Positions 18,068 to 34,421 of a stretch of 51,582 nucleotides of DNA are shown here, in pieces. Where the stretch lies: IMG/VR virus record IMGVR_UViG_3300025525_000040, positions 1-51,582 of that record. The stretch is one strand, 5' to 3'. This DNA is from a virus. A program made the translations under genes and the position numbers. Within the stretch, counting starts at the first letter, position 1; every line of letters starts with the position of its first letter. Below the pieces are notes generated by a model. That model was not told the origin of the DNA. It was given only the letters and a program-made list of their open reading frames with translations, and did not search any database.

Positions 18068-18382
18068 ATGCCAGCAAACGAACGCAAGTATTGGCCGACC
18101 CCATCAAAGCATGCTCATGTTTTGGGCGAGGTGAGGCAGGTCAAGCACGGCAAGGGCGTCACATCTGCGCTGTATCTGTACCAGGCATCCGTTGAGCGCG
18201 GTGATGAGCCACAGGAGCTGCCCGCAGCGCGCGCCAGGGCTATTATTGGGGCCTGTTCGGGGATTGTCTGCACTATTTGCGGACAGGAGGTCGATTGGAC
18301 AGAGCCGCCGACCGAGGCTTATCTGCGTTTGATGTCGCATTACCCGGCGATAGCGGTGGGTGATGGGGTAATGCAATCATGA
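18068..18382 (+). CDS. Hypothetical protein with CxxC
   Basis: 104 residues. Contains VCTICGQEVDW and an N-terminus rich in basic residues. It starts right after the previous stop with AGGAGGAGTGAGG as ribosome site. Might bind zinc with residues contributed elsewhere; unknown. Confidence 0.5.
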   Translation: MPANERKYWPTPSKHAHVLGEVRQVKHGKGVTSALYLYQASVERGDEPQELPAARARAIIGACSGIVCTICGQEVDWTEPPTEAYLRLMSHYPAIAVGDGVMQS

Positions 18383-18983: not shown

Positions 18984-19300
18984 GCTATGTACCGGTCCCG
19001 CCGCCACCAAAGAAGTTGAGCCTTACTGGTAACTCAGACGCCGACATTCCGCATTGTGACTATTGCAGGAGTGTTTTATTTCTGGATTATCGGGGTTGTT
19101 GTTGCGCTTGTGGCGCACCAGGAAGTGAGCATGTCCTGCTACCTGTGACGGCTTCTCCACAAAAGATTGCGGTGTTGAAGGTTTCCCGTATGTTATCAGC
19201 AGCCGCTCTTGAAAGAATTCATCAACAATGGTTGGATAATTTCGGGCCAGACTCGAAGCTGGTAATATTGGATAATGACATGGATATTGAGTTTTTGTGA
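18980..19300 (+). CDS. Cys-rich hypothetical protein
   Basis: 106 residues; HCDYCRSVLFLDYRGCCCACGAPG gives a zinc-ribbon-like cluster after a proline-rich start (VPVPPPPKK). ATGA overlap with the preceding gene. Last gene of the early block before the late-region RNA element. Confidence 0.55.
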   Translation: MSYVPVPPPPKKLSLTGNSDADIPHCDYCRSVLFLDYRGCCCACGAPGSEHVLLPVTASPQKIAVLKVSRMLSAAALERIHQQWLDNFGPDSKLVILDNDMDIEFL

Positions 19301-19336
19301 GCAGATGTGAACAGGTCGTCACTGGGCAAAAACATG

Positions 19337-19342
19337 TATAAT
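19337..19342 (+). promoter_or_regulatory. Candidate -10 box ahead of the first late-region RNA
   Basis: Perfect TATAAT with a TG extension region upstream, but no good -35 at 17 bases (GGTCGT / CGTCAC). A transcript from here would start near 19350 and include an AAAGGAGG sequence and the conserved RNA. Confidence 0.4.
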
Positions 19343-19394
19343 AAAAAATGAAAGGAGGTTTTGTTCTAAAAGTAGTGCTGTAACAATCTATTCG

Positions 19395-19470
19395 TTTGCA
19401 GTCCTGGTGTAGACCGGGACATTTGTCGGAAATGATGCACCCGGCGCCTTTATGGCGTCGGGTGCTTTTT
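19395..19470 (+). ncRNA. Late-region structured RNA, copy 1
   Basis: Two hairpins. First: GTCCTGGT-GTAG-ACCGGGAC (19401-19420, 8 pairs). Linker ATTTGTCGGAAATGAT. Second: 12-bp stem 19437-19448 / 19454-19465 with loop TTTAT followed by T5, an intrinsic terminator. The same architecture recurs at 26024-26101 with compensatory changes. It lies 30 bases before the holin-like gene at the head of the late genes. Confidence 0.7.
19437..19470 (+). terminator. Intrinsic terminator closing RNA copy 1
   Basis: Arms GCACCCGGCGCC and GGCGTCGGGTGC (one G-T pair), pentaloop TTTAT, then TTTTT. It would stop transcription between early and late genes unless antiterminated. Confidence 0.85.
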
Positions 19471-19500
19471 GTTTCCACTTACCTAACCAAGGAGAAAACT

Positions 19501-19947
19501 ATGAAGTTCAATCTCGAATCTGTTTTGAAAAGCCTGGGCCTCCCAGTTGGGCTGGTGGCTGTTTTTGCTGCCGTGTTGGCTTTGTTCGGCCTGGACTTGG
19601 ATATCGTCCTGGTCATTGCCGGCAGCATGATTGGCCTGCAGGCTTTGTTCAGTTTGTTGGTCGACGTGCTCAAGTGGGCAGGGGTCGTTGCCGACGACAC
19701 CGCTGGGGTATGGTCGGCCGTGTTCAATCTGTTGGGCCTTGCCGGCATTGCTGTTGTGTTGGGATTTCATCCCAGCTTCGACTATGCAGCTGTCGATTCA
19801 CAAATACTTGATGTCGTCAAAGTCCTCGGCCTGGTCTTTGGATATATCGTCCAGGTAGCCGGGACGAAGGGACTGCACCTGTTTCTTGTCAAAGGCCTGG
19901 GGTTGCGGGCGTTCTCGCATTCAGGCAGCAGGGAATTTCCGTTCTAA
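19501..19947 (+). CDS. Holin-like membrane protein
   Basis: 148 residues with about four hydrophobic segments (LPVGLVAVFAAVLALFGL, IVLVIAGSMIGLQALFSLLV, SAVFNLLGLAGIAVVLGF, VLGLVFGYIVQVAG) and a short polar C-terminus. Good AAGGAG site. Located first in the late region and next to a structured leader. Size and topology suit a holin or a related phage membrane protein, but there is no specific motif, and no endolysin gene is adjacent. Confidence 0.5.
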   Translation: MKFNLESVLKSLGLPVGLVAVFAAVLALFGLDLDIVLVIAGSMIGLQALFSLLVDVLKWAGVVADDTAGVWSAVFNLLGLAGIAVVLGFHPSFDYAAVDSQILDVVKVLGLVFGYIVQVAGTKGLHLFLVKGLGLRAFSHSGSREFPF

Positions 19948-20309
19948 TGCCCAGGAAGCCGCCCCGGCTTTGCGCCGCTCCGGGTTGTCCTGCGCTGGTC
20001 TACGAAGGGAGCCGGTGTGATGAGCACCGACTCCCACGTCCGCCTGATAACCGGCCCAATGCCACCCGTCGAGGCTACGGGTTTGCATGGCAGAAGAAAC
20101 GCAAGGCCTGGCTGGAAGAGCATCCGTGGTGCGTTGATTTGTATGGCGTTCACCGTGGGCTTCTGGTTCGGGCAACCATTGTTGACCATATTATTCCGTT
20201 ACGACAAGGAGGTCGTGATGATGAAACCAACTACCAATCCTTGTGTGTCACTTGCAATAACCGCAAGACCGCGCACGATGGCAGTCGTCGAGGGGGTAGG
20301 GGGGATTAA
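19947..20309 (+). CDS. HNH endonuclease, terminase-associated
   Basis: 120 residues. N-terminal CxxxxC/CxxH cluster (CAAPGCPALVYEGSRCDEH), then an HNH core: VDHIIPLRQGG (about 79-89), asparagine in ETNYQSLC (94-101) and CVTCNNRKT zinc residues. In HK97-like phages an HNH protein beside the terminase is needed for cos cleavage and packaging; position here fits that role. It overlaps the holin-like gene stop by one base. Confidence 0.85.
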   Translation: MPRKPPRLCAAPGCPALVYEGSRCDEHRLPRPPDNRPNATRRGYGFAWQKKRKAWLEEHPWCVDLYGVHRGLLVRATIVDHIIPLRQGGRDDETNYQSLCVTCNNRKTAHDGSRRGGRGD

Positions 20310-20392
20310 ATCTTCACAGTCTATGGTCGCTAGACCGGCGCATGGGTCGTGCGTATTTACCCGCGAAATTAGGTAGGGGGGGGTAGGTATGA

Positions 20393-20878
20393 ATGCGAGG
20401 ACGAAAACCAAAACCTACCACCGTGAAATTGCTCGCAGGCAATCCTGGAAAGCGAGCAATCAACCATGCAGAGCCTCGTCCAACAATAGTTTTTCCCTCG
20501 GCTCCAGAACATTTGGGCGATGATGAGAAAAACAAATGGTTGGCCGTTGTTCAGGAACTGTACACTCTCGGTCTCGTTACAACTGTTGACAAAGATGCGC
20601 TTGCCATGTATTGCGTGATTTATGTTCGCTGGTTGAAGGCCGAAAGGATGGTGCGCGAAAAAGGCGAAATTATTAAAACGGCAGCCGGGAACATTATTCA
20701 GAATCCCTACTTGGCAATAGCAAATCGCGCACTTGACCAGTTGAACAAGCTTGGTGCTGAGTTTGGAATGACACCTAGTAGCCGCTCACGAGTCAAAGTT
20801 GAACTACCCAACGCGGAGAGCGAACTGGAAGAAATGCTTTTTGGAAAAAGAATAAGGGTTTCAAATTATGACCGATGA
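20393..20878 (+). CDS. Terminase small subunit, P27 family (copy A)
   Basis: 161 residues opening RGRKPKPTTVKLLAGNPGKRA, the P27/TerS N-terminal signature, and ending with MTPSSRSR near the C-terminus. TerS recognises the packaging site and loads TerL. The gene is separated from TerL by two methyltransferases and a second small subunit at 23437 that shares the same N-terminal and GMTPSSRSR blocks. Which one serves packaging is uncertain; copy B sits directly before TerL. Confidence 0.85.
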   Translation: MRGRKPKPTTVKLLAGNPGKRAINHAEPRPTIVFPSAPEHLGDDEKNKWLAVVQELYTLGLVTTVDKDALAMYCVIYVRWLKAERMVREKGEIIKTAAGNIIQNPYLAIANRALDQLNKLGAEFGMTPSSRSRVKVELPNAESELEEMLFGKRIRVSNYDR

Positions 20879-22196
20879 CCTCACTTATATAGCGGAAGGC
20901 TTAAGAAGTCTGGCCGTCCCTATTGACGATTTGCATATCGACCCGGCCAACGCGCGGAAAGGTCACGCGCTGGACAGGATAGCCTCTTCTTTGAAAGCCT
21001 ATGGACAGCGCAAACCCATTATTGCCAATCGCCTGCAAAACGGCAAAATCGAGGCAGGCAATGGAACTTGGCTTGCAGCCAAGCGGATAGGTTGGAGCCA
21101 CATTGCGGTTGTTTTTGTTGAAGATGACCCGGCCACCGCAGCCGCTTATGGAATCGCGGACAACCGCCTGAGTGAGTTGAGCGAGTGGGACCTCGATGCG
21201 CTTGGGGCTTTGCTGCCAACCGTTGATGACCTGTTTACGGGTTTCACGGATGGTGAAATACGTGATGTCCTGGGAGAGCGGGGAGATGGGCTGATGGTGG
21301 ACCCAGGGCCGCAGGATGACCATCTGCTCGAGCTTTGCGAAAAATGGCAAACTGCTTCCGACCAGGCCTGGCAGCTCGGCAAGCACACATTAGTTTGCGC
21401 AGATACGATGCGCTTGGACATTGGGGCCTTGCAGTGGGGCGGAGTAGCGGCGCTGGCAGTTACATCTCCGCCTTATTGGGTCGGTAAAGATTATGAGCGC
21501 GAGAAAAGTGTGGAAGAGATAGAGAAGTTTATCGCCGAGGTTGCCCGAGTCATTGCATCCGTGGTGCGCGTTGACGAGTCACGTATTGTGATTAATACCG
21601 GAACAGGTTTCACAACGTCGTTTGATAAACGCAAGAAGCGCCAGGTGTTATTGCTGATAGATAAGTGGGCCAATGCTTTCTACCCGCATGGCTGGAATTT
21701 GCGCCATGTAAGGCACTGGCTGAAGGAAGGCCAGGTTGCAGCTTTATCGCCCAAGAGTGATTTGATTGACCAGCACTCGGAGTTTATTGGCGCATTTGAA
21801 CATGATGACGGCTTGCCGTTGAGCTTTACCGATTCCTTGAACGAGCAAGACATACTATCGCTTGAAACTTTCTACAATCGAGACGGTAAGAGCCGAGGGC
21901 AGGGAAAAACAAACCAGAAGTGGGCGCTGCGCTCGTATTGGAATGACATCAAGGGCACAGCTGGCGCGCATGGCCATGTGGCCGCATTTCCGTTGGAAAT
22001 CCCTGCACGGCATATCTTGCTTTATACCCGGCCAGACGAGGTTGTTTTTGACCCTTTCAGCGGGTCTGGAACGTCTTTGATTGCTTGTGAAATTCTAAAC
22101 CGAGTCTGCTGGGCTGCTGAAATTGACCCCCACTATGTAGCCGCGACCCTGGAACGATGGCACCTGATGACGGGGAAGATGCCTGAAAGGAAGTAG
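20868..22196 (+). CDS. ParB-like domain fused to DNA methyltransferase, N4-cytosine type motif
   Basis: 442 residues. Residues 10-110 are a ParB/sulfiredoxin-like domain (DPANARKGH, GQRKPIIANRLQNGKIEAGNGTW). The catalytic part is beta-class: motif IV TSPPYW (199-204) comes first and motif I FDPFSGSGT (394-402) near the end. TSPPYW is the form typical of N4-cytosine (or some C5-neighbour) enzymes. No restriction nuclease is adjacent, so it is an orphan, probably protecting phage DNA against host restriction. It overlaps terminase copy A by 11 bases. Confidence 0.85.
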   Translation: MTDDLTYIAEGLRSLAVPIDDLHIDPANARKGHALDRIASSLKAYGQRKPIIANRLQNGKIEAGNGTWLAAKRIGWSHIAVVFVEDDPATAAAYGIADNRLSELSEWDLDALGALLPTVDDLFTGFTDGEIRDVLGERGDGLMVDPGPQDDHLLELCEKWQTASDQAWQLGKHTLVCADTMRLDIGALQWGGVAALAVTSPPYWVGKDYEREKSVEEIEKFIAEVARVIASVVRVDESRIVINTGTGFTTSFDKRKKRQVLLLIDKWANAFYPHGWNLRHVRHWLKEGQVAALSPKSDLIDQHSEFIGAFEHDDGLPLSFTDSLNEQDILSLETFYNRDGKSRGQGKTNQKWALRSYWNDIKGTAGAHGHVAAFPLEIPARHILLYTRPDEVVFDPFSGSGTSLIACEILNRVCWAAEIDPHYVAATLERWHLMTGKMPERK

Positions 22197-22201
22197 CCCC
22201 A

Positions 22202-23440
22202 ATGACTGACCTGTCCTATATTACTGAATCTTTGAGACCCCTGGCAGTACCCGTTGCGAGCCTGCATGAAGACCCGGCCAATGCACGCATTGGGCATGAT
22301 GTAGAGCGAATCGCGGGCAGCCTGCGACAATATGGACAACGTAAACCCATTGTTGTGAACCGGCTACAGAACGGAAAGATTGAGGCTGGAAATGGCACCT
22401 ATCGCGCGGCTTTGCAATTGGGGTGGAGTCACATCGCTGTTGTTTTTGTGGATGATGACGCAGCCACCGCGGCGGCATTTGGGATTGCAGATAACCGCGT
22501 GGGAGAGTTTAGCCGTTGGGATGAAGATGTTTTGCGAGAACTGACCGGGAGCCTGGGCGACCTGTTTACCGGCTTTGAACCAGCTGAACTCGACGAGTTG
22601 GTTGGCGTTTCTACAGAAACGAAGCCGGTCCTTGACGACCCGGGGCCAGAACTTGAGCGCGCCGATGAGCTGCAGGCCAAGTGGCAAGTGCAGCCGGGCC
22701 AGATGTGGCGGCTGGGTAAGCAGCGCATCATGTGCGGCGATTCTACCCAGCAGGCCGATGTGAAGCGGTTGATGGGGAATGACCTCGCGCAGATGATATG
22801 GAGCGACCCGCCCTGGAATGTCAATTACGGCGGCGGAGTCGATGTCGAAAATGCACAGGGTTACAAGGTACGCACGATGAACAACGATAACCTGGGCAAA
22901 GACTTCCCGCTTTTTGTAGAGAAGTTTACCAAACGGATGTGGGAGTTTTGTGTACCCGGTGCGCCGATCTACCTGGTGATGGGCTCACAGGAGTGGCCGG
23001 TGATAGACCAACAATTGCGTGAGCGTGGTTTTCACTGGTCATCTACCATCGTATGGGTCAAAGACCAGCTGGTGCTCTCCAGGAAGGATTACCACACCCA
23101 ATTTGAGCCTATGTGGTATGGCTGGCGCGGGGATGCCGCCCGGTTGGTCGAGGTGGTGGACCGCAAGCAGTCTGATGTATGGTGCATCGACCGGCCCAAG
23201 AAAAGCGAAGACCACCCTACCCAGAAGCCGCTTGAGCTGGTCGAGCGGTCTATATCCAACTCCAGCAAGCCCGGGGCAGTTGTGCTTGACCTATTTTCCG
23301 GTTCTGGAACAACCCTGATGGCCTGTGAGCGACTGGGGCGGGTATGCCGCGCAATGGACAATGACCCCAAGTATGTGGCAGTTGGCCTTGAGCGCTGGTC
23401 AACCGCTACCGGCCAAAGTCCAGAATTGGAGGAGCCGTGA
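22202..23440 (+). CDS. ParB-like domain fused to DNA methyltransferase, N6-adenine type motif
   Basis: 412 residues. The first 110 residues are closely similar to the preceding protein (DPANARIGH, RQYGQRKPIVVNRLQNGK, SHIAVVFVDDD), but the catalytic half differs: motif IV SDPPWN (201-206), typical of N6-adenine methylases, and motif I LDLFSGSGTT (362-371). Target-recognition segments between them share no obvious similarity with copy one. Likely an orphan DNA methylase against restriction or for packaging control. Its stop overlaps the GTG start of terminase copy B. Confidence 0.88.
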   Translation: MTDLSYITESLRPLAVPVASLHEDPANARIGHDVERIAGSLRQYGQRKPIVVNRLQNGKIEAGNGTYRAALQLGWSHIAVVFVDDDAATAAAFGIADNRVGEFSRWDEDVLRELTGSLGDLFTGFEPAELDELVGVSTETKPVLDDPGPELERADELQAKWQVQPGQMWRLGKQRIMCGDSTQQADVKRLMGNDLAQMIWSDPPWNVNYGGGVDVENAQGYKVRTMNNDNLGKDFPLFVEKFTKRMWEFCVPGAPIYLVMGSQEWPVIDQQLRERGFHWSSTIVWVKDQLVLSRKDYHTQFEPMWYGWRGDAARLVEVVDRKQSDVWCIDRPKKSEDHPTQKPLELVERSISNSSKPGAVVLDLFSGSGTTLMACERLGRVCRAMDNDPKYVAVGLERWSTATGQSPELEEP

Positions 23441-23916
23441 GGGGGAGAAAGCCAAAGCCCACTGAAGTTAAAAAACTAGAAGGCAACCCTGGAAAACGGG
23501 CACTGAACAAAAAAGAGCCAAAGCCAGAGAGTGTGGTGCCACGCTGCCCGTCACACCTGCCTGATGTTGCAAAGGCAGAATGGCGGCGCATTACCAAGGA
23601 GCTGCATGCCCTCGGGCTGTTGAGCCGGATTGACCGGGCCGCGTTGGTTGCCTATTGCCAGGCCTGGTCTGATTACATCGAGGCGGATGAAGAGATAACG
23701 GTGCAGGGTGCCGTTATTGTCTCTGAAAAGGGCGGCATGTACCAAAACCCGTGGGTTGGTATCAAAAACAGCGCCCTGAACCGGTTGGTCAAGATTGCTG
23801 CGGAATTCGGCATGACGCCGTCGAGCCGGTCGCGCGTGTCATCAGAAAAACCAAGCGATGACGATGAAATTGCCCGTATGTTGTTCGGCGACAAAGTAAA
23901 GGTCAACAAGCAGTGA
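23437..23916 (+). CDS. Terminase small subunit, P27 family (copy B)
   Basis: 159 residues from a GTG overlapping the upstream stop. Opens RGRKPKPTEVKKLEGNPGKRALN and carries GMTPSSRSRV, like copy A, but the rest is divergent. It is directly followed by TerL with one base between, which is the normal TerS-TerL order, so this is the likelier working small subunit. Confidence 0.88.
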   Translation: MRGRKPKPTEVKKLEGNPGKRALNKKEPKPESVVPRCPSHLPDVAKAEWRRITKELHALGLLSRIDRAALVAYCQAWSDYIEADEEITVQGAVIVSEKGGMYQNPWVGIKNSALNRLVKIAAEFGMTPSSRSRVSSEKPSDDDEIARMLFGDKVKVNKQ

Positions 23917-23917
23917 A

Positions 23918-25618
23918 ATGGCGAAGATGAAAGCGGTACTTCATCCGGCAGAACAATATGCACACGATGTCGTGGCGGGCAAAATCGTGGCTTGCCGCTG
24001 GGTTCGCCTGGCGTGTGAGCGCCATTTACACGACTTAGCGCATGGCCATGAACGTGGGTTGTGGTTCGACCGGGATGCCGCTGAGCGCGTTTTGCGTTTT
24101 AAGGGGATATTAAAGCATTCCAAAGGCAAGTGGGCTGGGCAAAACTTAGTATTAGAGCCGTGGCAGCAGTTCAAGACTTGGGCGATGTTTGGGTGGATGA
24201 ACTCAGACGGCACACGCCGGTTTCGCAGCGCGTACATCGAAGTGGCACGTAAGAATGGCAAGTCTACCGACAGCGCCGGTGATGGCTTATATCTCGCTTT
24301 TGCTGACGGCGAAGCCGGGGCGGAGGTTTATTCAGCGGCCACGAAACGCGACCAGGCACGCATTGTGCACCAGGAGGCCATTCGGATGGTGCGCAAGAAC
24401 CCGCTGCTCAAGAAATATATCCGAATTTATAAGGATAATTTGAGCATCGAGCAGACGGCCAGCAAGTACGAGCCGCTGGGTGGTGACTCGGATAGTCTTG
24501 ATGGGCTCAACGTTCACGGCGCTGTCGTCGACGAGCTGCATGCTCATAAAAGCCGCGAGACGCTGGAGTTGCTTGAAACGGCCACCGGCTCGCGCGAGCA
24601 GCCGCTGATTATTATGATAACGACGGCGGGCATGGACCGCCAAAGCGTGTGCTATGAAAAGCATGAATACACGCGCAAGGTGCTCGAGGGTTGGCGAGAC
24701 GATTCGTACGTGGATGATTCGTGGTTTGGCATTATTTATACGCTGGATGAGGGCGATGACTGGCGAGATGAGTCTGTTTGGGTGAAGTCGAACCCCAACC
24801 TGGGTGTGTCAAAAAAATGGGAAGACATGCGCATAAAGGCCAAGCGGGCCGGGGAAATGGCCGCAGCCTTGAATAATTTTTTGCGGCGCGAACTGAACGT
24901 GTGGACGCAGGGCGAAGTAAAGTGGATGAACATGGATTCCTGGCGCGCCTGTGGCATTGAAAATATCCCAGCCCTAGAATTGCCAGAAAAGATGAAAGGC
25001 CAGGTGGCTTATGCTGGGTTGGACTTGTCGAGCACAGACGATATAACAGCCTGGGTTATGGTTTTTGCAGGTGATGACGGAGAGTATTATGTGGTTTGCC
25101 GCTTCTGGATACCAGAAGACAATATGAGCATTCGTACCCGCGACCAGGGGGTCAAATACGAGGAGTGGGTGAAGGCCGGGTTCATGGAGGCCACGCCAGG
25201 GAATGTTATTGATTATGACTGGATATTTGAGCAGATAGAAAAGGATGCCGATATGTTCGATATTGACCAGGGTGCTTTTGACCGTTGGGGCGCTGCGCGT
25301 GTGGTGCAGGTGCTCGAAAACAAAGGCATGACCATGCTGCCGTTTGGGCAAGGGTATGCTTCGATGTCGCCACCGATGAAAGAGCTGGAGCGGTTGATTC
25401 TTGCGAAAAAAATCAAGCACGGCAACAACCCGGTATTGACCTGGATGATGGATAACGTAGTCGCGAGACTGGACCCGGCCGGCAACATTAAGCCGGACAA
25501 GTCTCGAAGCCGCGAAAAAATAGACGGAGTGGTGGCGTTGATTATGGCCCTAGACCTTGCCTTGCGCCATCCGGAGCAGAAATCAGTCTATGAATCGCGC
25601 GGTATTCGCACTTTGTAG
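23918..25618 (+). CDS. terL: Terminase large subunit, HK97-like
   Basis: 566 residues. ATPase: adenine-side region LEPWQQF (79-85), Walker A-like ARKNGKST (110-117), Walker B AVVDELH (202-208), coupling motif TTAG (about 236-239). Nuclease half: AGLDLSSTDDITA and a later DIDQGAFDRWGA, with acidic metal-binding residues as in Terminase_1. The length is normal. It drives ATP-powered packaging and cuts concatemeric DNA; the HNH protein and P27 small subunit point to cos-type ends. Confidence 0.95.
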   Translation: MAKMKAVLHPAEQYAHDVVAGKIVACRWVRLACERHLHDLAHGHERGLWFDRDAAERVLRFKGILKHSKGKWAGQNLVLEPWQQFKTWAMFGWMNSDGTRRFRSAYIEVARKNGKSTDSAGDGLYLAFADGEAGAEVYSAATKRDQARIVHQEAIRMVRKNPLLKKYIRIYKDNLSIEQTASKYEPLGGDSDSLDGLNVHGAVVDELHAHKSRETLELLETATGSREQPLIIMITTAGMDRQSVCYEKHEYTRKVLEGWRDDSYVDDSWFGIIYTLDEGDDWRDESVWVKSNPNLGVSKKWEDMRIKAKRAGEMAAALNNFLRRELNVWTQGEVKWMNMDSWRACGIENIPALELPEKMKGQVAYAGLDLSSTDDITAWVMVFAGDDGEYYVVCRFWIPEDNMSIRTRDQGVKYEEWVKAGFMEATPGNVIDYDWIFEQIEKDADMFDIDQGAFDRWGAARVVQVLENKGMTMLPFGQGYASMSPPMKELERLILAKKIKHGNNPVLTWMMDNVVARLDPAGNIKPDKSRSREKIDGVVALIMALDLALRHPEQKSVYESRGIRTL

Positions 25619-25673
25619 GCTTGACTTTCCTGGCATACAGCGGCCTAATGATGGCAAGAAAGGAAACCAAACC

Positions 25674-25886
25674 ATGAAAACAAACGACAGCGCACTCGCA
25701 AAATACGAAGAGAAACAGGCGGCAATCAAGAAACTTCTTAAGCAGATTGAGGTCGGGATTGAGAAATCTGACAGGGGCAGAACCGAAGCGGTTCATTGGG
25801 GCCATGTTGGCAGCCTGGCGCACATTGAAGGGCAGTTGCAGGACATCAAAGACATGCTGTACCAAACCGGAGAATACGCAAATTGA
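25674..25886 (+). CDS. Small helical protein after terminase
   Basis: 70 residues starting MKTNDSALAKYEEKQ, preceded by AAAGGAAACC. Almost entirely helical and charged, coiled-coil-like over residues 8-35. No function recognised. Confidence 0.55.
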   Translation: MKTNDSALAKYEEKQAAIKKLLKQIEVGIEKSDRGRTEAVHWGHVGSLAHIEGQLQDIKDMLYQTGEYAN

Positions 25887-25981
25887 ACCCTTGACAGAAC
25901 AGAACGCATATTCTAAAATAGAAACCAGCGACCGTTTGACCTGCCCCCCTCAGGCCAAACGGTCGCACAATTTATTTTATA

Positions 25982-26010
25982 TTGACAAACAAGAACAAAA
26001 GTCCTAAAAT
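25982..26010 (+). promoter_or_regulatory. Strong promoter of RNA copy 2
   Basis: TTGACA (25982-25987), 17-base spacer, TAAAAT (26005-26010). Transcript predicted to start near 26017, giving an RNA of about 85 bases up to the terminator. Confidence 0.75.
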
Positions 26011-26023
26011 GAATAAGTAAATA

Positions 26024-26101
26024 TTTGCAGTCTTGGTGTAGACCGAGACGTTTGACGGAACTGATGCGCCCGTCCTGCTTTGTGCAGGATGGGCGTTTTT
26101 T
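26024..26101 (+). ncRNA. Late-region structured RNA, copy 2
   Basis: First hairpin GTCTTGGT-GTAG-ACCGAGAC (26030-26049); the C-G pair of copy 1 is T-A here and the loop GTAG is unchanged. Linker GTTTGACGGAACTGAT. Second hairpin 26067-26078 / 26084-26095 with loop TTTGT and a T run. About 60 percent of stem bases differ from copy 1 in the second hairpin, yet all 12 pairs are kept. A consensus promoter lies just upstream. Confidence 0.8.
26067..26101 (+). terminator. Intrinsic terminator closing RNA copy 2
   Basis: Arms CGCCCGTCCTGC and GCAGGATGGGCG (one G-T pair), loop TTTGT, then T6. It precedes the portal gene block. Confidence 0.85.
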
Positions 26102-26160
26102 GTTTCCCGGAGAAACCCGATGACCAAACAAGTACGAAGTTCAATCGAGTAAGGGGAGTT

Positions 26161-26430
26161 ATGGAGTATATCGGCCTACTTATCCAGGTCCCGTTGGTTG
26201 GTGTTTTTATCTGGTTTGCGCTCCAGCTCGTGGCGATTTTCTTGAAAGCGATTGAAGCGCGCGACAAGCAATGGCAGGATTTTCTCGTGTTGCAACGCAA
26301 GGAGACGAGTGATGCGCTGACGGCTTTGTCAGACGAGGTTAAGCGACTTTCTGGCGAGGTATCTAAATTTAACGGCGTTTTATCGGCCCATGATGCCCGA
26401 CAGCAAGACCAAATAAGGAAGGTCAGATGA
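26161..26430 (+). CDS. Small membrane protein with coiled-coil tail
   Basis: 89 residues. One N-terminal span (YIGLLIQVPLVGVFIWFALQLVAIFL) and a long charged helix (KETSDALTALSDEVKRLSGEVSKF). AAGGGGAGTT before the ATG. This topology occurs in some holins, antiholins and spanin-like phage proteins. It is coupled to the next gene by ATGA. Confidence 0.55.
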   Translation: MEYIGLLIQVPLVGVFIWFALQLVAIFLKAIEARDKQWQDFLVLQRKETSDALTALSDEVKRLSGEVSKFNGVLSAHDARQQDQIRKVR

Positions 26431-26612
26431 GGGGCTTTTACTTTGGGCCTTCTGAAGTTTTGTACATGATAGGCCTGATTTCCGTATTTTTTGGTTTGTG
26501 GGTTTGGATTGGGTTAGGCCAGGCATTGTTTGGTGTTGGGGCGGTGCTGCTCGCGACAGCGTTTGCAAACGCGATGCGGCGCAGCCCCCAGGAGAACAAG
26601 GATGCTGTTTGA
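26427..26612 (+). CDS. Small two-span membrane protein
   Basis: 61 residues: VLYMIGLISVFFGLWVWIGL and ALFGVGAVLLATAFANAM. It overlaps the portal start by 11 bases. With the preceding gene it could make a second lysis or membrane pair; no motif confirms this. Confidence 0.5.
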   Translation: MRGFYFGPSEVLYMIGLISVFFGLWVWIGLGQALFGVGAVLLATAFANAMRRSPQENKDAV

Positions 26613-28248
26613 GCGCCGCTACCACCCGTCAACGGACCCGGACAGTGAATTTAGCCGGGTTTTGGCGGGCGGAGATGTAAGCACATCGGGAGTGATGGTC
26701 ACGCCAGAGAGTGCGCTGCGCGTCTCGGCCTGGCTGGCCTGTGTGCGCATCATTTCGGAGACGGCGGGCAGTTTGCCGTTTATTACGTACAAACGGCTGG
26801 AGCGCGGGAAGCAGCGCGCGCACGACCACTACCTGTACTCGCTTTTGCATGATGTGCCCAACCCGGAGATGACGGCCATGACCTACAGAGAGACGATTAC
26901 GTCTCATGTGGCGTCTCGCGGCAATGGGTTGTCCGAAATCGAGTTTGACCGTGCTGGGCGGGTGCGCGCGTTATGGCCGCTCAACCCTGACCGGGTGCGA
27001 ATGGAGCGGCGGCAAGGAAGATTGTGGTACGTCATCACCCTGCCTAATTCGGCAGGTGGATACCCGGTGGGCATCCCATCTGACCGTGTTTTCCATGTGC
27101 GCTGGATGACACGTAACGGCTTGTGGGGTTATTCCCCGACTGACCTGGCGCGCGAGTCGATTGGTATGGCCCAGGCAATTCAGACACACGGCGCGTCCTA
27201 CTTCAGCAATGGGGCTGAGCCAGGCGTTGTATTGAAACACCCCAAAGAACTCGGCGATAAGGCATACGGCCGCTTGCGGGAAACTTGGGAAGAGCGGCAT
27301 CAGGGTCTCGATAAAAAGCACAGGGTTGCCATCTTGGAAGATGGGATGGAAATCGAGAAGCTCGGCGTGGGCAACGAAGATAGCCAGTTTATCCAATCTG
27401 CGGAGATGACGGTGGCGGAAATCGCGCGCATCTTCGGGATTTCCCTGGATATGTTGGCCATCAATGGCGCATCGGCGACTTATGCAAGCGTTGAGGCCTT
27501 TGGACTGCGTTTTGTGACGTACACCATGCGGCCGTGGTTTGTGCGCTGGGAGCAGGAAGTTTCGAGAAGCCTGCTGACGCGTGCAGAGCGGCGCGATTAT
27601 TATGCCGAGCACCTGGTGGAGGCGTTGCTGCGCGGCGACCTGGCTTCACGGTACAACGCTTTCGCCCAGGGCATCACGAATGGGTTTCTTACCATCAACG
27701 ATGTGCGCGAGGCCGAAAACCGCAACCCGGTCGAAGGTGGGGATACGCCACGGGTGCCGCTCAACTCGGTTGCACTCGGATACGAACCCCAGCAGCCGGT
27801 GGCGCAGCGCAGCATTTTACAGGCTCAGTGGCACACCTTCAGGGATGTGGCAGAGCGCGTGTTACGAAGGCAGCGCAACGATGTGTTGGCATTGGCGCGC
27901 CGGGATGGCTTTGCACAAACCTTGCCGAATTTTTACGCAGACCATGAGGCTTTTGTTGCCGCACAGTTCGAACCTGTGGCGCGCGCGCAGATTGAAATTT
28001 GGAAGCGCATGGTAAGCAAGCCACTGAACGAACTTGAGGTTGCCATTTTGGCTACCAGTGTAGCACGCAACCTGGCGCGGCGAATGTGCTCTGACGATTA
28101 CCGCCATGTGCGAAGCCTTGGCATAGACAATTTTGCAGATTTGTTCTCTGACTGGTGCGCGAGCCGGTCAGAGACGTTCGAGAGCGATTTTGACGCTCTA
28201 AACAGCATGATTCTGGCGAATTTTACCCAGGAGGAGCAGGATGACTGA
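26602..28248 (+). CDS. Phage portal protein, HK97 family
   Basis: 548 residues from MLFERRY. It has the portal-family features SAWLACVRIISETAGSLPF (about 43-61), AHDHYLYSLLHDVPNPEM, and FGISLDMLAI with an ATYASVEAF block (about 290-315). The C-terminal 150 residues are long helices (crown/wing region). It forms the dodecameric ring through which DNA enters and leaves the head. ATG has GGAG upstream; it overlaps both neighbours. Confidence 0.92.
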   Translation: MLFERRYHPSTDPDSEFSRVLAGGDVSTSGVMVTPESALRVSAWLACVRIISETAGSLPFITYKRLERGKQRAHDHYLYSLLHDVPNPEMTAMTYRETITSHVASRGNGLSEIEFDRAGRVRALWPLNPDRVRMERRQGRLWYVITLPNSAGGYPVGIPSDRVFHVRWMTRNGLWGYSPTDLARESIGMAQAIQTHGASYFSNGAEPGVVLKHPKELGDKAYGRLRETWEERHQGLDKKHRVAILEDGMEIEKLGVGNEDSQFIQSAEMTVAEIARIFGISLDMLAINGASATYASVEAFGLRFVTYTMRPWFVRWEQEVSRSLLTRAERRDYYAEHLVEALLRGDLASRYNAFAQGITNGFLTINDVREAENRNPVEGGDTPRVPLNSVALGYEPQQPVAQRSILQAQWHTFRDVAERVLRRQRNDVLALARRDGFAQTLPNFYADHEAFVAAQFEPVARAQIEIWKRMVSKPLNELEVAILATSVARNLARRMCSDDYRHVRSLGIDNFADLFSDWCASRSETFESDFDALNSMILANFTQEEQDD

Positions 28249-28990
28249 ACTTGAAAAACGAACATTGACTTTTGATTTTGACAGTTTGCAAGTCGAAGAG
28301 CGGGCCGATGGCCAGCCGCCTTTGATTGTCGGTCATGCGGCGGTCTTTAACCAGTTGTCTGTTGACCTGGGTGGATATCGGGAGCGCATTCGCCGAGGCG
28401 CGTTTACGAAGACCATTCTTGAGCAGGATGTGCGCGCGCTTTTTAACCATGATGCCAATATTGTCCTGGGGCGCAGCAAGAGCAAAACACTGGAAATGCG
28501 CGAGGATGAAACCGGCTTGCTGATTAGGGTTGACCCACCCAAAACGCAGCTCATCAATGACATGGTGTTGGAGCCTATTCGGCGGCGAGATATTACCCAG
28601 ATGTCGTTCATGTTCCGCGCGCTCCGGCAGGAATGGCTCGATGATACCGTTACGCAGGAGCGAATTCGGGAGCTTGTGGAAGTGCGGCTGTATGACGTTT
28701 CGGTCGTGACTTTTCCGGGCTACGAAGGAACCGACGTTGCCGTGCGCTCTGCGCTGGCCGCGGTCGGGATTGATTACCAGGCTTTATCGCAGGCCATTGA
28801 GCGTTCGAAATCAGGCGACATTAACGATGGTGACCGCTTAATGGTGCGTTCAGCAATAACAGCGCTCGAATCGATGTTGACGGTTGCGCCGCCCCAGGAG
28901 GAGCACCCAACCGAAGCCGAAAACCAAAATATGGCGCAGGCGCGCCAGGATTGGCTGAAGCGACAACTCGAACTGTTGGCGCTCGAATAA
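28241..28990 (+). CDS. Prohead serine protease, HK97 (S78) family
   Basis: 249 residues. IVGHAAVFNQLS, the catalytic His in LFNHD (about 67-69), and the catalytic Ser in QMSFMF (about 123-126) followed by VRLYDVSVVTFPGYEGT match family S78. It cleaves the scaffold/delta domain of the capsid protein during maturation. A 60-residue helical C-terminal extension follows the protease core. Confidence 0.92.
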   Translation: MTELEKRTLTFDFDSLQVEERADGQPPLIVGHAAVFNQLSVDLGGYRERIRRGAFTKTILEQDVRALFNHDANIVLGRSKSKTLEMREDETGLLIRVDPPKTQLINDMVLEPIRRRDITQMSFMFRALRQEWLDDTVTQERIRELVEVRLYDVSVVTFPGYEGTDVAVRSALAAVGIDYQALSQAIERSKSGDINDGDRLMVRSAITALESMLTVAPPQEEHPTEAENQNMAQARQDWLKRQLELLALE

Positions 28991-29024
28991 CCTTTTTCTT
29001 TCTCATCTTTCGGAGGAACAACTA

Positions 29025-30365
29025 ATGACTACCTTACGTGAAAAACGCATGAAGCGCGCCAACCTTGTTTACGAGGCGCGCCAGATTGATGCTCTCGCCA
29101 AGAAGGAAAAGCGCGGCTTGACGGCTGATGAAGAGCAGCGCTATGACGCCATCATGGACGAAGCAACCGCCCTGGGGCAGGAAATCCAGGAAGAGGAACA
29201 GCGCGAGGCGCGCGCGGCCCAACGCCAGCAATGGCTGGAGCAGGAAGAGCGCGGCCTGGATGAGCCGGATGGGAGCACCCTGCGCCCTGAGCCGGGTGAA
29301 GGGGATGACGAGACTGAAAACCGTTCTGGTGTCGGGTCAATTGCCCCACTATACCGCGCCGCGTTGCGCGAGGCCCGCGAGCACCGTGCGTATGCCATGC
29401 GCGAATCGGCTGAGTACCGAGATGCGTTCCGGGGCTTTTTGCGCGGCCAGCAGGTGCCGCAAATGGAACGGCGCGACGGCCTGGTGGCCGGGAATGACCC
29501 TTCGGGCGGGTTCTTAAAGCCACCGCCTGCCTTTGTGGCGCGGCTGCTGATGGCGGTTGACAACATTGTCTTTTTCCGCCAGCCTGGTTGGGCAACGGTC
29601 ATCCCGGTGCTCAATGCCGACAGTCTGGGGATTGTCTCGCTGGATGCCGACCCGGACGATGGGGAGTGGACGACTGAAATCGCCGAAATCACTTATGACG
29701 CCAGCATGGCGTTTGGCAAGCGCGAGTTGAAGCCGCAGCCGTTGAAGAAGGGCATCAAGATTAGCCGCAAGCTGCTGCGCCTGCGCCCCGATTCGGAGCA
29801 GCTGGTCATCGACCGGATGCGCTACAAGATTGCTGTGACCCAGGAAAAGAAATTCATGACTGGCCACGGCTCGAACCAGCCGCTGGGCGTTTTTACAGCC
29901 AGCACGCAGGGCATCAGCACGGCGCGCGACGTTGCCACGGACAACACGTCTACAGCGATGACCGCTGACGGCTTGATAAATGCCAAGTTTACGCTGAAGC
30001 CGCAGTATTGGCCCGGGTCGAAGTGGCTCTTCCACCGCGACGGCGTCAAGCAGCTCGCCAAGTTGAAAAACAGCACCACCGGCGAGTACATCTGGCGCGA
30101 ATCTGTGCGCGCAGGAGAACCAGACCGGCTGCTGAACCTACCCCTGGCGATGAGCGAGTATGCCCCGAACACGTTCACTTCCGGCTTGTATGTTGGCATC
30201 CTGGCCGATTTCAGCTTCTACCACATTGCTGACAGCCTGGATATGGACTTCCAGCGCCTGGTGGAACTGTATGCCAAGACCGGCCAGATTGGCTTCCATG
30301 CCGAACTCGAAACCGACGCCATGCCGGTGCTCGAAGAGGCTTTTGTCCGCGTGAAACTCGGATAG
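29025..30365 (+). CDS. Major capsid protein, HK97 fold
   Basis: 446 residues. Residues 1-130 are helical and charged (the delta domain expected to be cut by the protease; LREKRMKRANLVYEARQIDALAKKEKRGLT). The mature part starts near 150 with GNDPSGGFLKPP, then IKISRKLLRL and GHGSNQPLGVF, all typical of HK97 capsids. Strong AGGAGG site as expected for an abundant protein. Confidence 0.93.
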   Translation: MTTLREKRMKRANLVYEARQIDALAKKEKRGLTADEEQRYDAIMDEATALGQEIQEEEQREARAAQRQQWLEQEERGLDEPDGSTLRPEPGEGDDETENRSGVGSIAPLYRAALREAREHRAYAMRESAEYRDAFRGFLRGQQVPQMERRDGLVAGNDPSGGFLKPPPAFVARLLMAVDNIVFFRQPGWATVIPVLNADSLGIVSLDADPDDGEWTTEIAEITYDASMAFGKRELKPQPLKKGIKISRKLLRLRPDSEQLVIDRMRYKIAVTQEKKFMTGHGSNQPLGVFTASTQGISTARDVATDNTSTAMTADGLINAKFTLKPQYWPGSKWLFHRDGVKQLAKLKNSTTGEYIWRESVRAGEPDRLLNLPLAMSEYAPNTFTSGLYVGILADFSFYHIADSLDMDFQRLVELYAKTGQIGFHAELETDAMPVLEEAFVRVKLG

Positions 30366-30418
30366 CCACAATTGCTTCGTTTGTTCGTCTCATCGGATGA
30401 ATAGACAAGGAGAAAACC

Positions 30419-30841
30419 ATGAACCTGAGCAAGAACACCAAACTCATCAAGGTAAAGGCGGGCCAGGCTTCTGGCACCGACCTGATTACCAGCGACACCG
30501 TTGACATGCAGGGCTTCGAAGGCGTGATGTTTTTCGGCTCGATTGCCACTGCAAACGCAGGCAATTACGCCAAGGCGCGCCAAGGCGCTGACAGCGGCAT
30601 GTCTGACGGCGCAGACCTGGCCGGGACGAAGATTGTCACCGGTGACAACGGTGATTCGTTCCTGATTGACCTGTATCGGCCCGCGAAGCGTTATGTCGAT
30701 GTGCAGGTTGTGCGAGGTGCCGCGACCATCACCGGCGACATTTATGCCCTGCTGTACGATGCGCCGCGCAAGGCACCGACCAGCCAGGGCGCGACCATCG
30801 ACGCCGAGTTGCACGTCAGCCCAGCGGAAGGCACCGCGTAA
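30419..30841 (+). CDS. Probable head decoration or minor structural protein
   Basis: 140 residues, Ala/Gly/Asp-rich, strand-rich, low in aromatic residues, starting NLSKNTKLIKVKAGQASGTD. Its place right after the capsid gene and good AAGGAG site suggest an abundant capsid-associated protein. No family confirmed. Confidence 0.6.
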   Translation: MNLSKNTKLIKVKAGQASGTDLITSDTVDMQGFEGVMFFGSIATANAGNYAKARQGADSGMSDGADLAGTKIVTGDNGDSFLIDLYRPAKRYVDVQVVRGAATITGDIYALLYDAPRKAPTSQGATIDAELHVSPAEGTA

Positions 30842-30856
30842 CCTGCGGCCTGATTG

Positions 30857-30892
30857 TTCCATCCCCTGCTCGTGTTCAGGCAGGGGATGGAA
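30857..30892 (+). other. 13-bp intercistronic hairpin
   Basis: TTCCATCCCCTGC (30857-30869) pairs perfectly with GCAGGGGATGGAA (30880-30892), loop 10 bases. No T run follows, so it may be an mRNA stability or attenuation structure rather than a simple terminator. Confidence 0.6.
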
Positions 30893-30919
30893 GCCACTTC
30901 TACTCAAGGAGAGTACCCC

Positions 30920-31120
30920 ATGAAAATCAAAATGTTGACCTTGCAAGCGGGCCCAAAAGGGGTGCGCGAACCTGGTAAAGAATATGACGTACCCGACAAG
31001 GAAGCCAAAGAACTGATTGCCGGCGGCTATGCCCAACCGGCAGGCCTTGAAAAGGCGACCGGCCGGCGCGGCACTGAAAAGGCGACCGCGCCCGATGCAG
31101 AAGAGCCGGGCGAGTCTTAG
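30920..31120 (+). CDS. Small head-region protein (DUF7210-like)
   Basis: 66 residues. Short strand-rich start (KIKMLTLQAGPKGVREPGKEYDVPDKEAKELIAGGYAQ), the pattern of small proteins often found between phage capsid and connector genes, then a charged disordered tail. Function unknown. Confidence 0.6.
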   Translation: MKIKMLTLQAGPKGVREPGKEYDVPDKEAKELIAGGYAQPAGLEKATGRRGTEKATAPDAEEPGES

Positions 31121-31165
31121 TTGTCCATTTCCGGCGACCCTCCCCGCCGGTTGGAGCCTTATTGC

Positions 31166-31203
31166 TTGGGATTGCTGTGCTCCTCCTCGCGCAGCAATCC
31201 CAA
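31166..31203 (+). other. 12-bp intercistronic hairpin
   Basis: TTGGGATTGCTG (31166-31177) and CAGCAATCCCAA (31192-31203) pair perfectly with a 14-base loop. No T run follows. It lies 15 bases before the connector gene, so it may affect its translation. Confidence 0.6.
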
Positions 31204-31218
31204 CCCACCCTAAACCTG

Positions 31219-32244
31219 ATGAACCTACAAGTCTATTGCACCCTGGATGAATTGAATGACGACGCGGAAGGCGCAAGCGGCCTGGATGTGAGCGTTTTGT
31301 CCCGTTTCATTTTGCCTGCCAGTGAGTATTTGAGCCGGGAAATTGGGATGTTCCTGCCCTTCCTGGAAACGCAGAAGCTCAGCGCACGGGACTCTGTTTT
31401 GTATACCCCGCCGCTGCTACGACTGACTGACGATATCAACAATGCGGGTGTCACGGTCAGCCAGGCGGATGTGGTATTGCGCTCGACGGCGCAGAATAAC
31501 CGCCCTTTTTGGCATGACGGCCCATTTTTGCGCATCGACCCGGCCAGCGGTGTTTCGTTGTCCTGGAGCGAGGCCGTGAACGGGGTTGAGGTTCCAGGCG
31601 TGTGGGGCTTGTATGAGCGCAGCGAGGCGACCGGGGCGACAGCCGCCAGCGAACAAGGCGTTTCCGTGGAAACGCTGAGCGTGGCGGATGGTTCGCTGCT
31701 TTCGCCGGGGATGGTGCTGCAATTGGGCGAGGAGTGGCAGTTTGTGCGTGGTTACGGCGCGGTTTCGGCGAGCCTGACGACGCTGGCCAGCGCGCTGGAT
31801 GCTTCGAGCGAGGTGGTGGCCCTGGCGAGCGGGTCAGCGGTGAAGGTTGGGGAAGTGCTGAAGGTCGAGTTCGAGCAGATGAAGGTTTTGGATATCCAGA
31901 CGAACAGCGCGTTTGTGATACGCGGCTGGAATAAGACCAAGAAGGTTGCGCACAACTCAGGGGCCGCGGTGGGGGCGTTCCGGTCGTTTGCGGTGACGCG
32001 GGCGGTGAATGGCTCGGAGGCGGCGACCCACGCCACGGCGACGGCTATCTCTCGGATGGTTGTGCCGAGCGACATTAATTATTTATGCCGGCAGATTGCA
32101 ACCCTGATGATGAAAAAGAGCCAGGGCGGGTATGCCGGGCGGTTGGGCAATGCCGAGAGTGGCGAGAGTTTTTATTTGCATGAGTTCCCGCGGGATGCCA
32201 TCGAGCGGGTGAAGAGCAATTATTACATTCCGGCGGTGCGGTGA
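31219..32244 (+). CDS. Head-tail connector-like protein
   Basis: 341 residues. The first 30 residues (YCTLDELNDDAEGASGLDVSVLSRFILPASEYLSREIG) resemble the small helical HK97 gp6-type adaptors. But the protein is three times longer, with a strand-rich middle (about 60-280) carrying LSVADGSLLSPGMVLQLG and similar repeats like a beta-sandwich insertion. The C-terminal helix closes the adaptor fold. It probably binds the portal. Confidence 0.65.
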   Translation: MNLQVYCTLDELNDDAEGASGLDVSVLSRFILPASEYLSREIGMFLPFLETQKLSARDSVLYTPPLLRLTDDINNAGVTVSQADVVLRSTAQNNRPFWHDGPFLRIDPASGVSLSWSEAVNGVEVPGVWGLYERSEATGATAASEQGVSVETLSVADGSLLSPGMVLQLGEEWQFVRGYGAVSASLTTLASALDASSEVVALASGSAVKVGEVLKVEFEQMKVLDIQTNSAFVIRGWNKTKKVAHNSGAAVGAFRSFAVTRAVNGSEAATHATATAISRMVVPSDINYLCRQIATLMMKKSQGGYAGRLGNAESGESFYLHEFPRDAIERVKSNYYIPAVR

Positions 32245-32678
32245 TGGCTGGGTATCGCGGGGCGGCTCGAATCAACAGCGTGTTGGATGCCGGCAGTGTG
32301 GACCGGCAGTTGAAGAAACTGGCTGACTTCGACAAGTTATACAGCGAAATTATGGGCCAGGCGGTGCAGGATGCGATTGGAATCGCCGGCGCGCGGGCAA
32401 GCGAGAATGCGCCCAAACTGACCAGTGAGCTGGCCGCAAACATTTTTAAGAAATATTTGGGCGTGAACAAGAGCAATATGCAGATACGCGGCGCGGTAGG
32501 AACCAACAAGGGCCAGGGCCTGAAGGGCATCGTGATGGAAGTAGGCCGGAACTATGGCGCGCGCCGGTGGAAGGGATTTTTCTACCTTTATTACGGCGTG
32601 ATGGACAAGCGCGACGAGATAGCCGCTTTGTACAGCAAAGCCAATGAGCAGATTGTTCAAAAACTGGTGACGCGATGA
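32244..32678 (+). CDS. HK97 gp10-like head-tail/tail completion protein
   Basis: 144 residues. A start with helical ring-former character (DRQLKKLADFDKLYSEIMGQAV...GARASENAP) and GFFYLYYGVMD near the end match the HK97 gp10 family pattern. ATG overlaps the previous stop (TGATG). It joins the head connector to the tail terminator. Confidence 0.7.
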   Translation: MAGYRGAARINSVLDAGSVDRQLKKLADFDKLYSEIMGQAVQDAIGIAGARASENAPKLTSELAANIFKKYLGVNKSNMQIRGAVGTNKGQGLKGIVMEVGRNYGARRWKGFFYLYYGVMDKRDEIAALYSKANEQIVQKLVTR

Positions 32679-33136
32679 TTGAGGACTGGATTGACGACCT
32701 GACGAGAGTCTGGGAGGTGGATGACGGCAAGGGCGGGCATGTGCGCTCGTACCGGCTGTTTGAGCGGGATGAGTTCCCACAAAATGTTCCGCTGGACATA
32801 CCAACGGCATTGACCTTTTTTGACAACGTGGACAACCTAGAGTATTCCGAGGGTGGGCCGAAAATCGCCTTTTACAAGGGCACGGCTGAGTTCAACCTGA
32901 CCCCTGATTTGGATAGGAGCCGGATTCCGTATGTGCTGCGCTTTGTGGGGCGCATCATTCGGGCGGCGGCTGCGAATATGACCCTGGGCGGGCGCGTGAA
33001 TTATATGATTTTAGACCCAAGCGGGCCGATTGAGATGAGCACTTTGAAGTATGGCAATGCAGGCGCAGAGCATTTGGGTCTGGTGGCGAAATGGATTGTG
33101 AAGGAAACGCTGAATGGCCTGGAGGTGAGTCAGTGA
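32675..33136 (+). CDS. Tail terminator-like protein
   Basis: 153 residues, strand-rich, overlaps gp10-like by ATGA. Position (after gp10, before tail tube) and size suit the tail terminator/completion protein that caps the tube. Sequence similarity to a named family is not obvious, so the call rests on synteny. Confidence 0.55.
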   Translation: MIEDWIDDLTRVWEVDDGKGGHVRSYRLFERDEFPQNVPLDIPTALTFFDNVDNLEYSEGGPKIAFYKGTAEFNLTPDLDRSRIPYVLRFVGRIIRAAAANMTLGGRVNYMILDPSGPIEMSTLKYGNAGAEHLGLVAKWIVKETLNGLEVSQ

Positions 33137-33357
33137 AAGACAAGGCGATTGTTTATGTGTTCGTTGGCGATGGGCTGGGGGTTCCTGGCCTGGCGCATGA
33201 GATTACCCAGGAGCAGGCGGAGGCCGACGGGGTTGGCGGCTTGCTGAAGGATTGCATTGAAAAAGGCGTGTACAGGGAACGGCTGGAAGTGCCGCCTGGC
33301 TACCCTGAGAACGTTGATGTGAAGCTTGAAACAGGCCAAAAAGGCCGGAAAGGTTAA
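33133..33357 (+). CDS. Small hypothetical protein
   Basis: 74 residues from a GTG overlapping the upstream stop. Begins VKDKAIVYVFVGDGLGVPGL; strand then helix. Lies just before the tail tube gene. No function recognised. Confidence 0.55.
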   Translation: MKDKAIVYVFVGDGLGVPGLAHEITQEQAEADGVGGLLKDCIEKGVYRERLEVPPGYPENVDVKLETGQKGRKG

Positions 33358-33363
33358 ATCATC

Positions 33364-34392
33364 ATGGGCGACCGATTTTTTAGCAAAGTACAGTTTGGCA
33401 CGGAGAACCCGGCTGCGCATGGGACGCCGGTGGCGGCGACGCGGACGTTGGTGGGCGGGCAGGTTGGGCCGATTACGCCGTATAAGCGACCGCGCAAAAT
33501 CAACGAAAACATTGGGGTGCGTTCGGCGGGACACAGGAAGGTCATTGACCAGTACCTGGTGAGCGACAGTTTGAGCATCCCGGAGGGGTACTTCCAGGCC
33601 TTGCTGCCGATTTTGGGCTGCGGGCTGAAGGGCGCGGTAACGGCCACAGAGACGACTGCCGACCAGAGCGATTATGCCTGGGATTTTACGCCGAGCCTGG
33701 CTTCTGATGGCGCGAATGCGCCTGACAGCCTGACGATTGAGAAGGGCGACAACACGCAGGCCTTTGAGGCCGAGTATTGCATGTTTCAGCGGGTGCGCAT
33801 CAGCGGCCAGGTGGCGCAGGGCGCGGATGCCGCTCCGGTGAGCATCGAGGCCGAGTATTTCGGGCGGCAGTGGACGCCGACCACGTTTACCGGGTCGATT
33901 GCCATTCCGGTGACCACGCCGTTGAACGCGAAACTGGCGCGGGTGTACGTGGATACGAGCTGGGCGGGCCTGGGCGGCACGGAGCTGGCCAACATCCTGC
34001 GAGCGTTTGACCTGGACATCATATTGGGGCCGTACCCAAACTTTGCAGGCAGCGCGGCCAAGACGTTCAACCGGCACGGCGAGGGCATCATTGGGGCGCA
34101 GTTGTCGCTGACCCTGGAAGGTTTAAGCGCGGCGGATGCGCTTTGGGACGCGGCCAACAGCGACACGCAGGCGCTTTCGTTCGTGCAGCTGGCGCTGGGC
34201 GGCCCACAGATTGGGACGGGCGCGAGCCATTCGGCGAAGTTCAACCTGGCCGGGACGTGGGATGAGGTCATTCCGCTGGCCGAGGAAGACCGCGGAAACA
34301 ACCTGCACACGCTGGTGATGACCAGCCTTTACGACCCGACTGCCGCGAAAGAAGTTGGGGCGGTGGTTGTGACGGACCGGAATAGTTACTAG
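33364..34392 (+). CDS. Major tail (tube) protein
   Basis: 342 residues. Strand-rich with TENPAAHGTPVAATRTLVGG near the start, RVRISGQVAQGADAAPVSIEAEYFGRQW in the middle and DITLEG-like repeats, the usual look of siphovirus tube proteins (the 'tail tube' family with Ig-like extension). Located between the tail terminator and the chaperones, as in HK97-like phages. Confidence 0.75.
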   Translation: MGDRFFSKVQFGTENPAAHGTPVAATRTLVGGQVGPITPYKRPRKINENIGVRSAGHRKVIDQYLVSDSLSIPEGYFQALLPILGCGLKGAVTATETTADQSDYAWDFTPSLASDGANAPDSLTIEKGDNTQAFEAEYCMFQRVRISGQVAQGADAAPVSIEAEYFGRQWTPTTFTGSIAIPVTTPLNAKLARVYVDTSWAGLGGTELANILRAFDLDIILGPYPNFAGSAAKTFNRHGEGIIGAQLSLTLEGLSAADALWDAANSDTQALSFVQLALGGPQIGTGASHSAKFNLAGTWDEVIPLAEEDRGNNLHTLVMTSLYDPTAAKEVGAVVVTDRNSY

Positions 34393-34421
34393 GAGGAGCC
34401 GCCTGAAGGCGGCGGTACATC

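Follow-up and report, generated by a model that had tools for sequence, protein, structure and literature searches.

A phage RNA element with predicted terminator and antiterminator states at the heads of two late gene blocks

Element copies and gene content of the window

The window analysed here is a 51,582-nucleotide stretch of viral DNA. It carries two copies of an element of approximately 80 nt, both on the plus strand and referred to as copy A and copy B. The original prediction had described two elements of about 78 bases at these places. Both were confirmed by a common core, TTTGCAGTCNTGGTGTAGACCGNGAC, which is found at 19395-19420 and 26024-26049 with 0 mismatches (0 expected from shuffles), and by folds far better than those of shuffled sequences (z of -7.4 for copy A and -6.9 for copy B). 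No third copy of the core is present in the window.

The layout is the same in both copies. From 5' to 3' it consists of the triplet GCA, the 20-nt hairpin P1, a 4-nt spacer, the linker GTCGG or GACGG, the sequence AA-NN-GATGC, a terminator of 12-13 bp and a T tract, with a ribosome site and a late gene shortly 3' of each T tract. In copy A the 5' strand of P0, GCA, is located at 19398..19400 and was assigned from conservation and covariation across the members. It is followed by P1 (GTCCTGGT-GTAG-ACCGGGAC, 19401..19420), by the linker GTCGG, which is the 5' strand of P2 and can take the place of the 3' arm in pairing with the terminator 5' arm (19425..19429), and by the 3' strand of P0, TGC (19436..19438). 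The terminator hairpin of 12 pairs extends over 19437..19465, with its T tract at 19466-19470, and the 3' strand of P2, CCGGC, is found at 19441-19445. The corresponding features of copy B are GCA (26027..26029), P1 (GTCTTGGT-GTAG-ACCGAGAC, 26030..26049), the linker GACGG (26054..26058), TGC (26065..26067), a terminator hairpin of 13 pairs (26066..26096) followed by a T tract (26097-26101), and the 3' strand of P2, CCGTC (26070-26074). The replacement of C-G by T-A in P1 and the re-paired terminator stems, both described in the original prediction, are real. The two terminators, with 12 and 13 pairs, are the strongest terminator-like sites on the plus strand between 19000 and 38990, where the next-best sites reach at most 9 pairs, and we infer that they are functional.

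Upstream of copy A lies the gene of c2 (18068..18382, plus strand), an orphan protein of 104 aa with an invariant His and a CxxC motif, which is a candidate trans-acting factor. The first late gene after copy A (19501..19947, plus strand) encodes a membrane-like protein of 148 aa, which is called holin-like from its position and hydrophobicity only. It has no PHROG match and is found by clustering in 14 of 19 records. The last large gene before copy B encodes the large terminase subunit (23918..25618, plus strand; PHROG 9, E 2.5e-180). The structural block behind copy B is headed by an ORF with the portal gene (26530..28248, plus strand; PHROG 12, E 2e-108), whose true start probably lies 3' of 26530. 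Two small-terminase and two ParB-methyltransferase genes are arranged in tandem around the terminase block of the window (20393-25618), and this duplication is also seen in several relatives.

The placement before a holin/terminase and a portal block, given in the original prediction for the window, recurs across the mapped records. Copy A precedes the holin-like, HNH, small terminase, ParB-methyltransferase and large terminase genes, and copy B is located between the large terminase and the portal gene. This arrangement is retained even in records with few other genes in common.

Promoters and leaders

For copy A, a -10 box TATAAT was identified at 19337..19342 on the plus strand, in agreement with the original prediction, and no recognisable -35 was found. 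Its context, TGTATAAT, recurs 5' of most A copies. Close to where the transcript of copy A is predicted to begin lies GAAAGGAGG (19350..19358, plus strand), which is present in most A copies, 7-10 nt downstream of TGTATAAT, and in none of the B copies. It is similar to the STAB-SD stabiliser of the Bacillus cry3A mRNA, which is a resemblance only (PMC4113751). A leader peptide after GAAAGGAGG in copy A was considered and rejected, as the leaders contain no consistent reading frame.

Copy B is preceded by the predicted promoter TTGACA-17-TAAAAT (25982..26010, plus strand), and a second promoter of the same form is located further 5' (25891..25919, plus strand). The B promoters are near-consensus and of the sigma-70 type, with a score of at least 10 of 12 in 16 of 20 cases versus 3% of shuffles. 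A strong promoter with a strong terminator right behind it suggests that regulation takes place at the termination step.

Between the two B promoters of the window a long hairpin was found (25928..25966, plus strand; z -8.0) with the loop region TGCCCCCCTCA. The succession of an extra promoter and a long hairpin, located at 25891-25966 in the window, also occurs 5' of other B copies, with the loop region GCCCCCCTCA. The motif CCCCCTCA precedes 12 of 26 B copies, whereas none of 25 A copies has it upstream. The long hairpin may serve as a further element of regulation or as a bidirectional terminator.

Members and hosts of the RNA family

Pattern scans of IMG/VR yielded tens of additional copies, and the covariance model R1 was built next. 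In the search with R1, 17 of 32 records showed two strong copies on the same strand, 1.6-9 kb apart; for one record of this set the spacing is about 7 kb across the record ends, if it is circular. Two copies on one strand are found in 28 records, namely these 17, the window, G001, G002 and eight contigs fetched with c2. A few of the 28 are near-duplicates of one another, and the second copy of L158 is weak (22 bits). The mapped records with a single copy stop or start inside the block, so that the other copy would be off the contig; G002, which was mapped with one copy, has both. In total, at least 70 distinct members of the family were found, which come from uncultured phages and three bacterial assemblies. 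Of the outcomes named in advance as speaking against the original prediction, none of those accessible to sequence analysis was observed: covarying homologues are abundant, and there are usually two copies per phage, adjoining late genes.

Two variants were observed. An A-type copy at L020:2846-2909 has kept P1 and the linker and has no terminator 5' arm; it is either a natural terminator-less form or an assembly error. In G420 (L149:1745-3390) two copies, 1.6 kb apart, are located between terminase and portal, which hints at a possible third copy per phage.

Rfam 15 gave no match at or above the gathering score for the window and related loci, and the original statement that no described family has this sequence holds for this database. 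The top match of copy B below the threshold was PyrR, with 28.9 bits versus a cut-off of 54. By blastn no copy of the element was found in 50,697 GenBank phage records. Among 396 genomes of the host class, the covariance model detected real copies only in the genome used as the centre. Weak matches of the model in Chloroflexota genomes were rejected as ordinary terminators without P1, and most pattern matches in bacterial contigs (e.g., Pseudacidovorax and Rhizobium) as fortuitous matches within coding sequence that lack a terminator.

Of the named hosts of the element, one is an assembly assigned to the Anaerolineales and the other, with a contig of 414 kb, an assembly assigned to the Chloroflexi. 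A contig filed under Bacteroidetes carries the two elements of the window at identical spacing, and its filing is probably due to mis-binning. The hosts of the element-carrying phages apparently belong to the Chloroflexota.

Alternative pairing within the element

The linker 3' of P1 mimics the 3' arm of the terminator and is able to form a helix, P2, with the 5' arm. In the first 38 members 188 of 190 P2 cells are paired, and all 38 have at least 4 pairs. Shuffled unique combinations of linker and arm seldom reach the observed pairing (p 9e-5). The register is specific as well, with 98% of the cells of 50 members paired in place versus at most 65% when the strands are slid. Changes in the linker are matched by the arm (GACGG with CCGTC, GATGG with CCATC, TTCGG with CCGAA, ATCGG with CCGAT, GTTGG with CCAAC), and the later members found through c2 only (L152, L158, L160, L162, L165, L170 and L173) agree on P2. 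A few linkers form a P2 of only 4 pairs.

On alignment A7, P1 is paired to 97% and P0 to 100%, two-sided changes occur at 11 of 16 pairs, and both these changes and the covariation score exceed all shuffles (0 of 500 reach the score). P2 is paired to 83.5% on A7, a value lowered by misalignment of the linker in some rows. P1 is kept in every member. Its loop varies between phages in length and sequence, and P1 of copies A and B within one phage is more similar than between phages (p 2e-4), which would fit a shared partner or gene conversion. The unpaired A and GA bases between the strands of P2 are conserved.

In all members in which the base is retained, the triplet GCA before P1 is accompanied by UGC, with 0 discordant cases, and GCG is combined with CGC in 3 members from two lineages; in L167 the triplet is GCA. 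The joint change suggests P0, and hence a pseudoknot. P0 consists of 3 bp and is nearly invariant, and the GAGC variants lose the third pair. It is less certain than P2, since one of the GCG/CGC changes can also be read as an extension of the terminator. A closing helix of GCA and UGC that competes with the terminator is a possible feature of the RNA.

In predicted folds, 66 of 70 transcripts that lack the 3' arm adopt P2, and the terminator prevails in the full-length RNA, in calculations that ignore polymerase and pseudoknots. With P2 present before the 3' arm is made and the terminator thereafter, the element appears to be built as two exclusive states. It very likely represents a real, structured, phage-encoded RNA family, in which covariation backs a terminator and an antiterminator state at late operons. 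The pairing P2 and the linked protein gene c2 go beyond the original prediction.

The linked protein c2

After tblastn, a c2 homologue was found upstream of copy A in 16 of 16 records covering this region, and c2 is the only early-side family in every one of them. The end of the c2 gene is often less than 400 nt from copy A. Searching with c2 alone fetched 14 new contigs, 13 of which carry the element; in the remaining one, L168, the contig end is reached about 0.7 kb past c2. This link is partly one of shared phage ancestry.

No match that holds was obtained for c2 in Pfam, PHROG and NCBIfam, and at the sensitivity of tblastn it is absent from the 50,697 phage records. A relationship to BIR domains (best E 0.001-0.006) was rejected as a short resemblance of the zinc site. 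Broad c2 alignments contain too few conserved stretches for profile searches. The AlphaFold2 model has a pLDDT of 82.7. A fold search gave nothing significant in the PDB and one viral protein at E 2e-3, and the predicted fold matched no known RNA-binding protein. The pI of the members ranges from 5.6 to 9.5, several being near neutral or slightly acidic.

The distance between c2 proteins correlates with that of P1 in the adjacent copy A (p 4e-4), also beyond the terminase distance (p 0.004). No correlation was found with P1 of copy B (p 0.15), and a coevolution of c2 with copy B is unsupported. Since c2 tracks copy A only, linkage could explain the correlation, and c2 is held as the best candidate. 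The chances that it is the trigger of the switch are roughly even.

A model for late gene attenuation

Judged from structure and conservation, attenuation is quite probably the function of the element. RNA polymerase would initiate at the promoter immediately 5' of it. By default, P1 and the intrinsic terminator would form and transcription would end after about 80-130 nt. Before the 3' arm of the terminator is synthesised, the linker (GTCGG or a variant) could pair with the 5' arm in P2, and GCA before P1 with UGC just 5' of the terminator arm in P0. Together, P0 and P2 would form a pseudoknot around P1 and both would exclude the full terminator, a state from which we infer read-through. A trans-acting factor able to stabilise this fold during the passage of the polymerase would turn on both late blocks simultaneously. 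The best candidate for this factor is c2, whose gene lies immediately upstream of copy A, like the Q gene of lambda relative to pR'. We consider it likely that each element is a transcription attenuator in a late-operon 5' leader, with P0-P1-P2 as the read-through fold and c2 as the best candidate for the trigger. A two-component late switch, in which c2 recognises the pseudoknotted leader and blocks the terminator at the two late blocks, with timing via RNA refolding, is proposed tentatively, at somewhat below even chance.

The lambda pR'/tR'-like attenuation considered in the original prediction is supported by the succession of promoter, hairpin and terminator at the heads of the late blocks. 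Shared with lambda pR'-tR', its 6S RNA and Q are the late promoter, the short leader, the intrinsic terminator before the late genes and a regulator gene immediately upstream, here the candidate c2. In contrast to lambda, there is an apparent RNA refolding switch, which is duplicated at two late blocks. A Q-family antiterminator (PF06530, PF03589) is absent from the 51.6-kb record with positive controls detected, although the Q families are diverse and a distant one could escape.

Antiterminators of the BglG/LicT type offer a second parallel. In their RAT RNA a protein-stabilised antiterminator helix overlaps the 5' arm of the terminator, as P2 does here, but the element has a separate P1 and a pairing of the pseudoknot type. 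The domain CAT_RBD (PF03123) is absent from the window, with positive controls detected. The two-hairpin RNAs of ANTAR proteins have fixed, conserved hexaloops, whereas the loop of P1 varies in length and sequence; a search with PF03861 gave no match, and neither did the positive controls. The similarity to conAn of pLS20 concerns the layout only, a candidate two-part system in which a small protein is combined with a cis RNA that heads an operon. conAn acts in the conjugation operon of Gram-positive plasmids, which contains more than 20 terminators (PMC8955417).

The put RNAs of phage HK022, the second analogy of the original prediction, act in early operons without a phage protein and suppress distant terminators via the zinc-binding domain of the polymerase beta' subunit (PMC9378689). 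Like the phages described here, HK022 has two related RNAs of about 70-80 nt, with stem-loops near promoters and a link to terminator read-through (PMC9378689). The analogy holds for the two copies of about 80 nt per phage and fails in that the RNA of the window includes its own terminator, together with a pairing incompatible with it. P1, together with P2, could nevertheless act alone by binding the elongating polymerase and making it resistant to termination. The conserved unpaired bases and the position of P1 before the terminator would fit, as would the two stem-loops of the HK022 RNAs of about 70 nt (PMC9378689). We regard this as unlikely. The elements' own terminators are the only strong ones on the plus strand of 19000-38990, so that long-range antitermination is not needed, and P2 directly occludes the terminator it precedes. 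In addition, a P1 loop that varies widely across phages, with copies that are alike within one phage, suits a phage-specific partner.

The small pseudoknot overlapping a terminator and the conserved A and GA bases between the strands of P2 also resemble known riboswitches, and the P0-P2 pseudoknot could bind a host protein or a small molecule as a signal of the infection state. Riboswitches normally serve host genes too, but the real matches in the 396 host-class genomes were confined to the centre genome, and the element is tightly associated with c2; this explanation is quite improbable. A pair of trans-acting small RNAs, as alternatively suggested in the original prediction, would agree with a promoter and a terminator that bracket about 80-130 nt, would be merely ended by the terminator and could be stabilised by GAAAGGAGG at the 5' end, but it is very improbable because the covariation is within each copy, P2 pairs better in cis than in trans where the copies differ (of 10 pairs, 10 vs 8 in the window, 9 vs 7 in L151 and 9 vs 6 in L158, only three phages being informative) and the element always lies just 5' of a late gene and its ribosome site.

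Implications

To our knowledge, the control of late genes has been worked out thoroughly in few phages, chiefly lambda-like, T4-like and T7-like ones, and little is known of phage biology in the Chloroflexota. A literature search, incomplete in its coverage, found no RNA of this type in phage late control. What is new here is an RNA family absent from Rfam, with which the observation of the original prediction is extended to an apparently recurrent switch. Comparative sequence analysis alone led to this putative RNA switch at the late operons of phages with apparent Chloroflexota hosts. The covariance model can be used for the annotation of late operons in viromes, and c2 and the element are a candidate protein-RNA pair that is open to direct study in vitro. 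If the two-component switch is true, late timing in these phages would be set by RNA refolding and not by a late sigma factor or Q-type loading of the polymerase.
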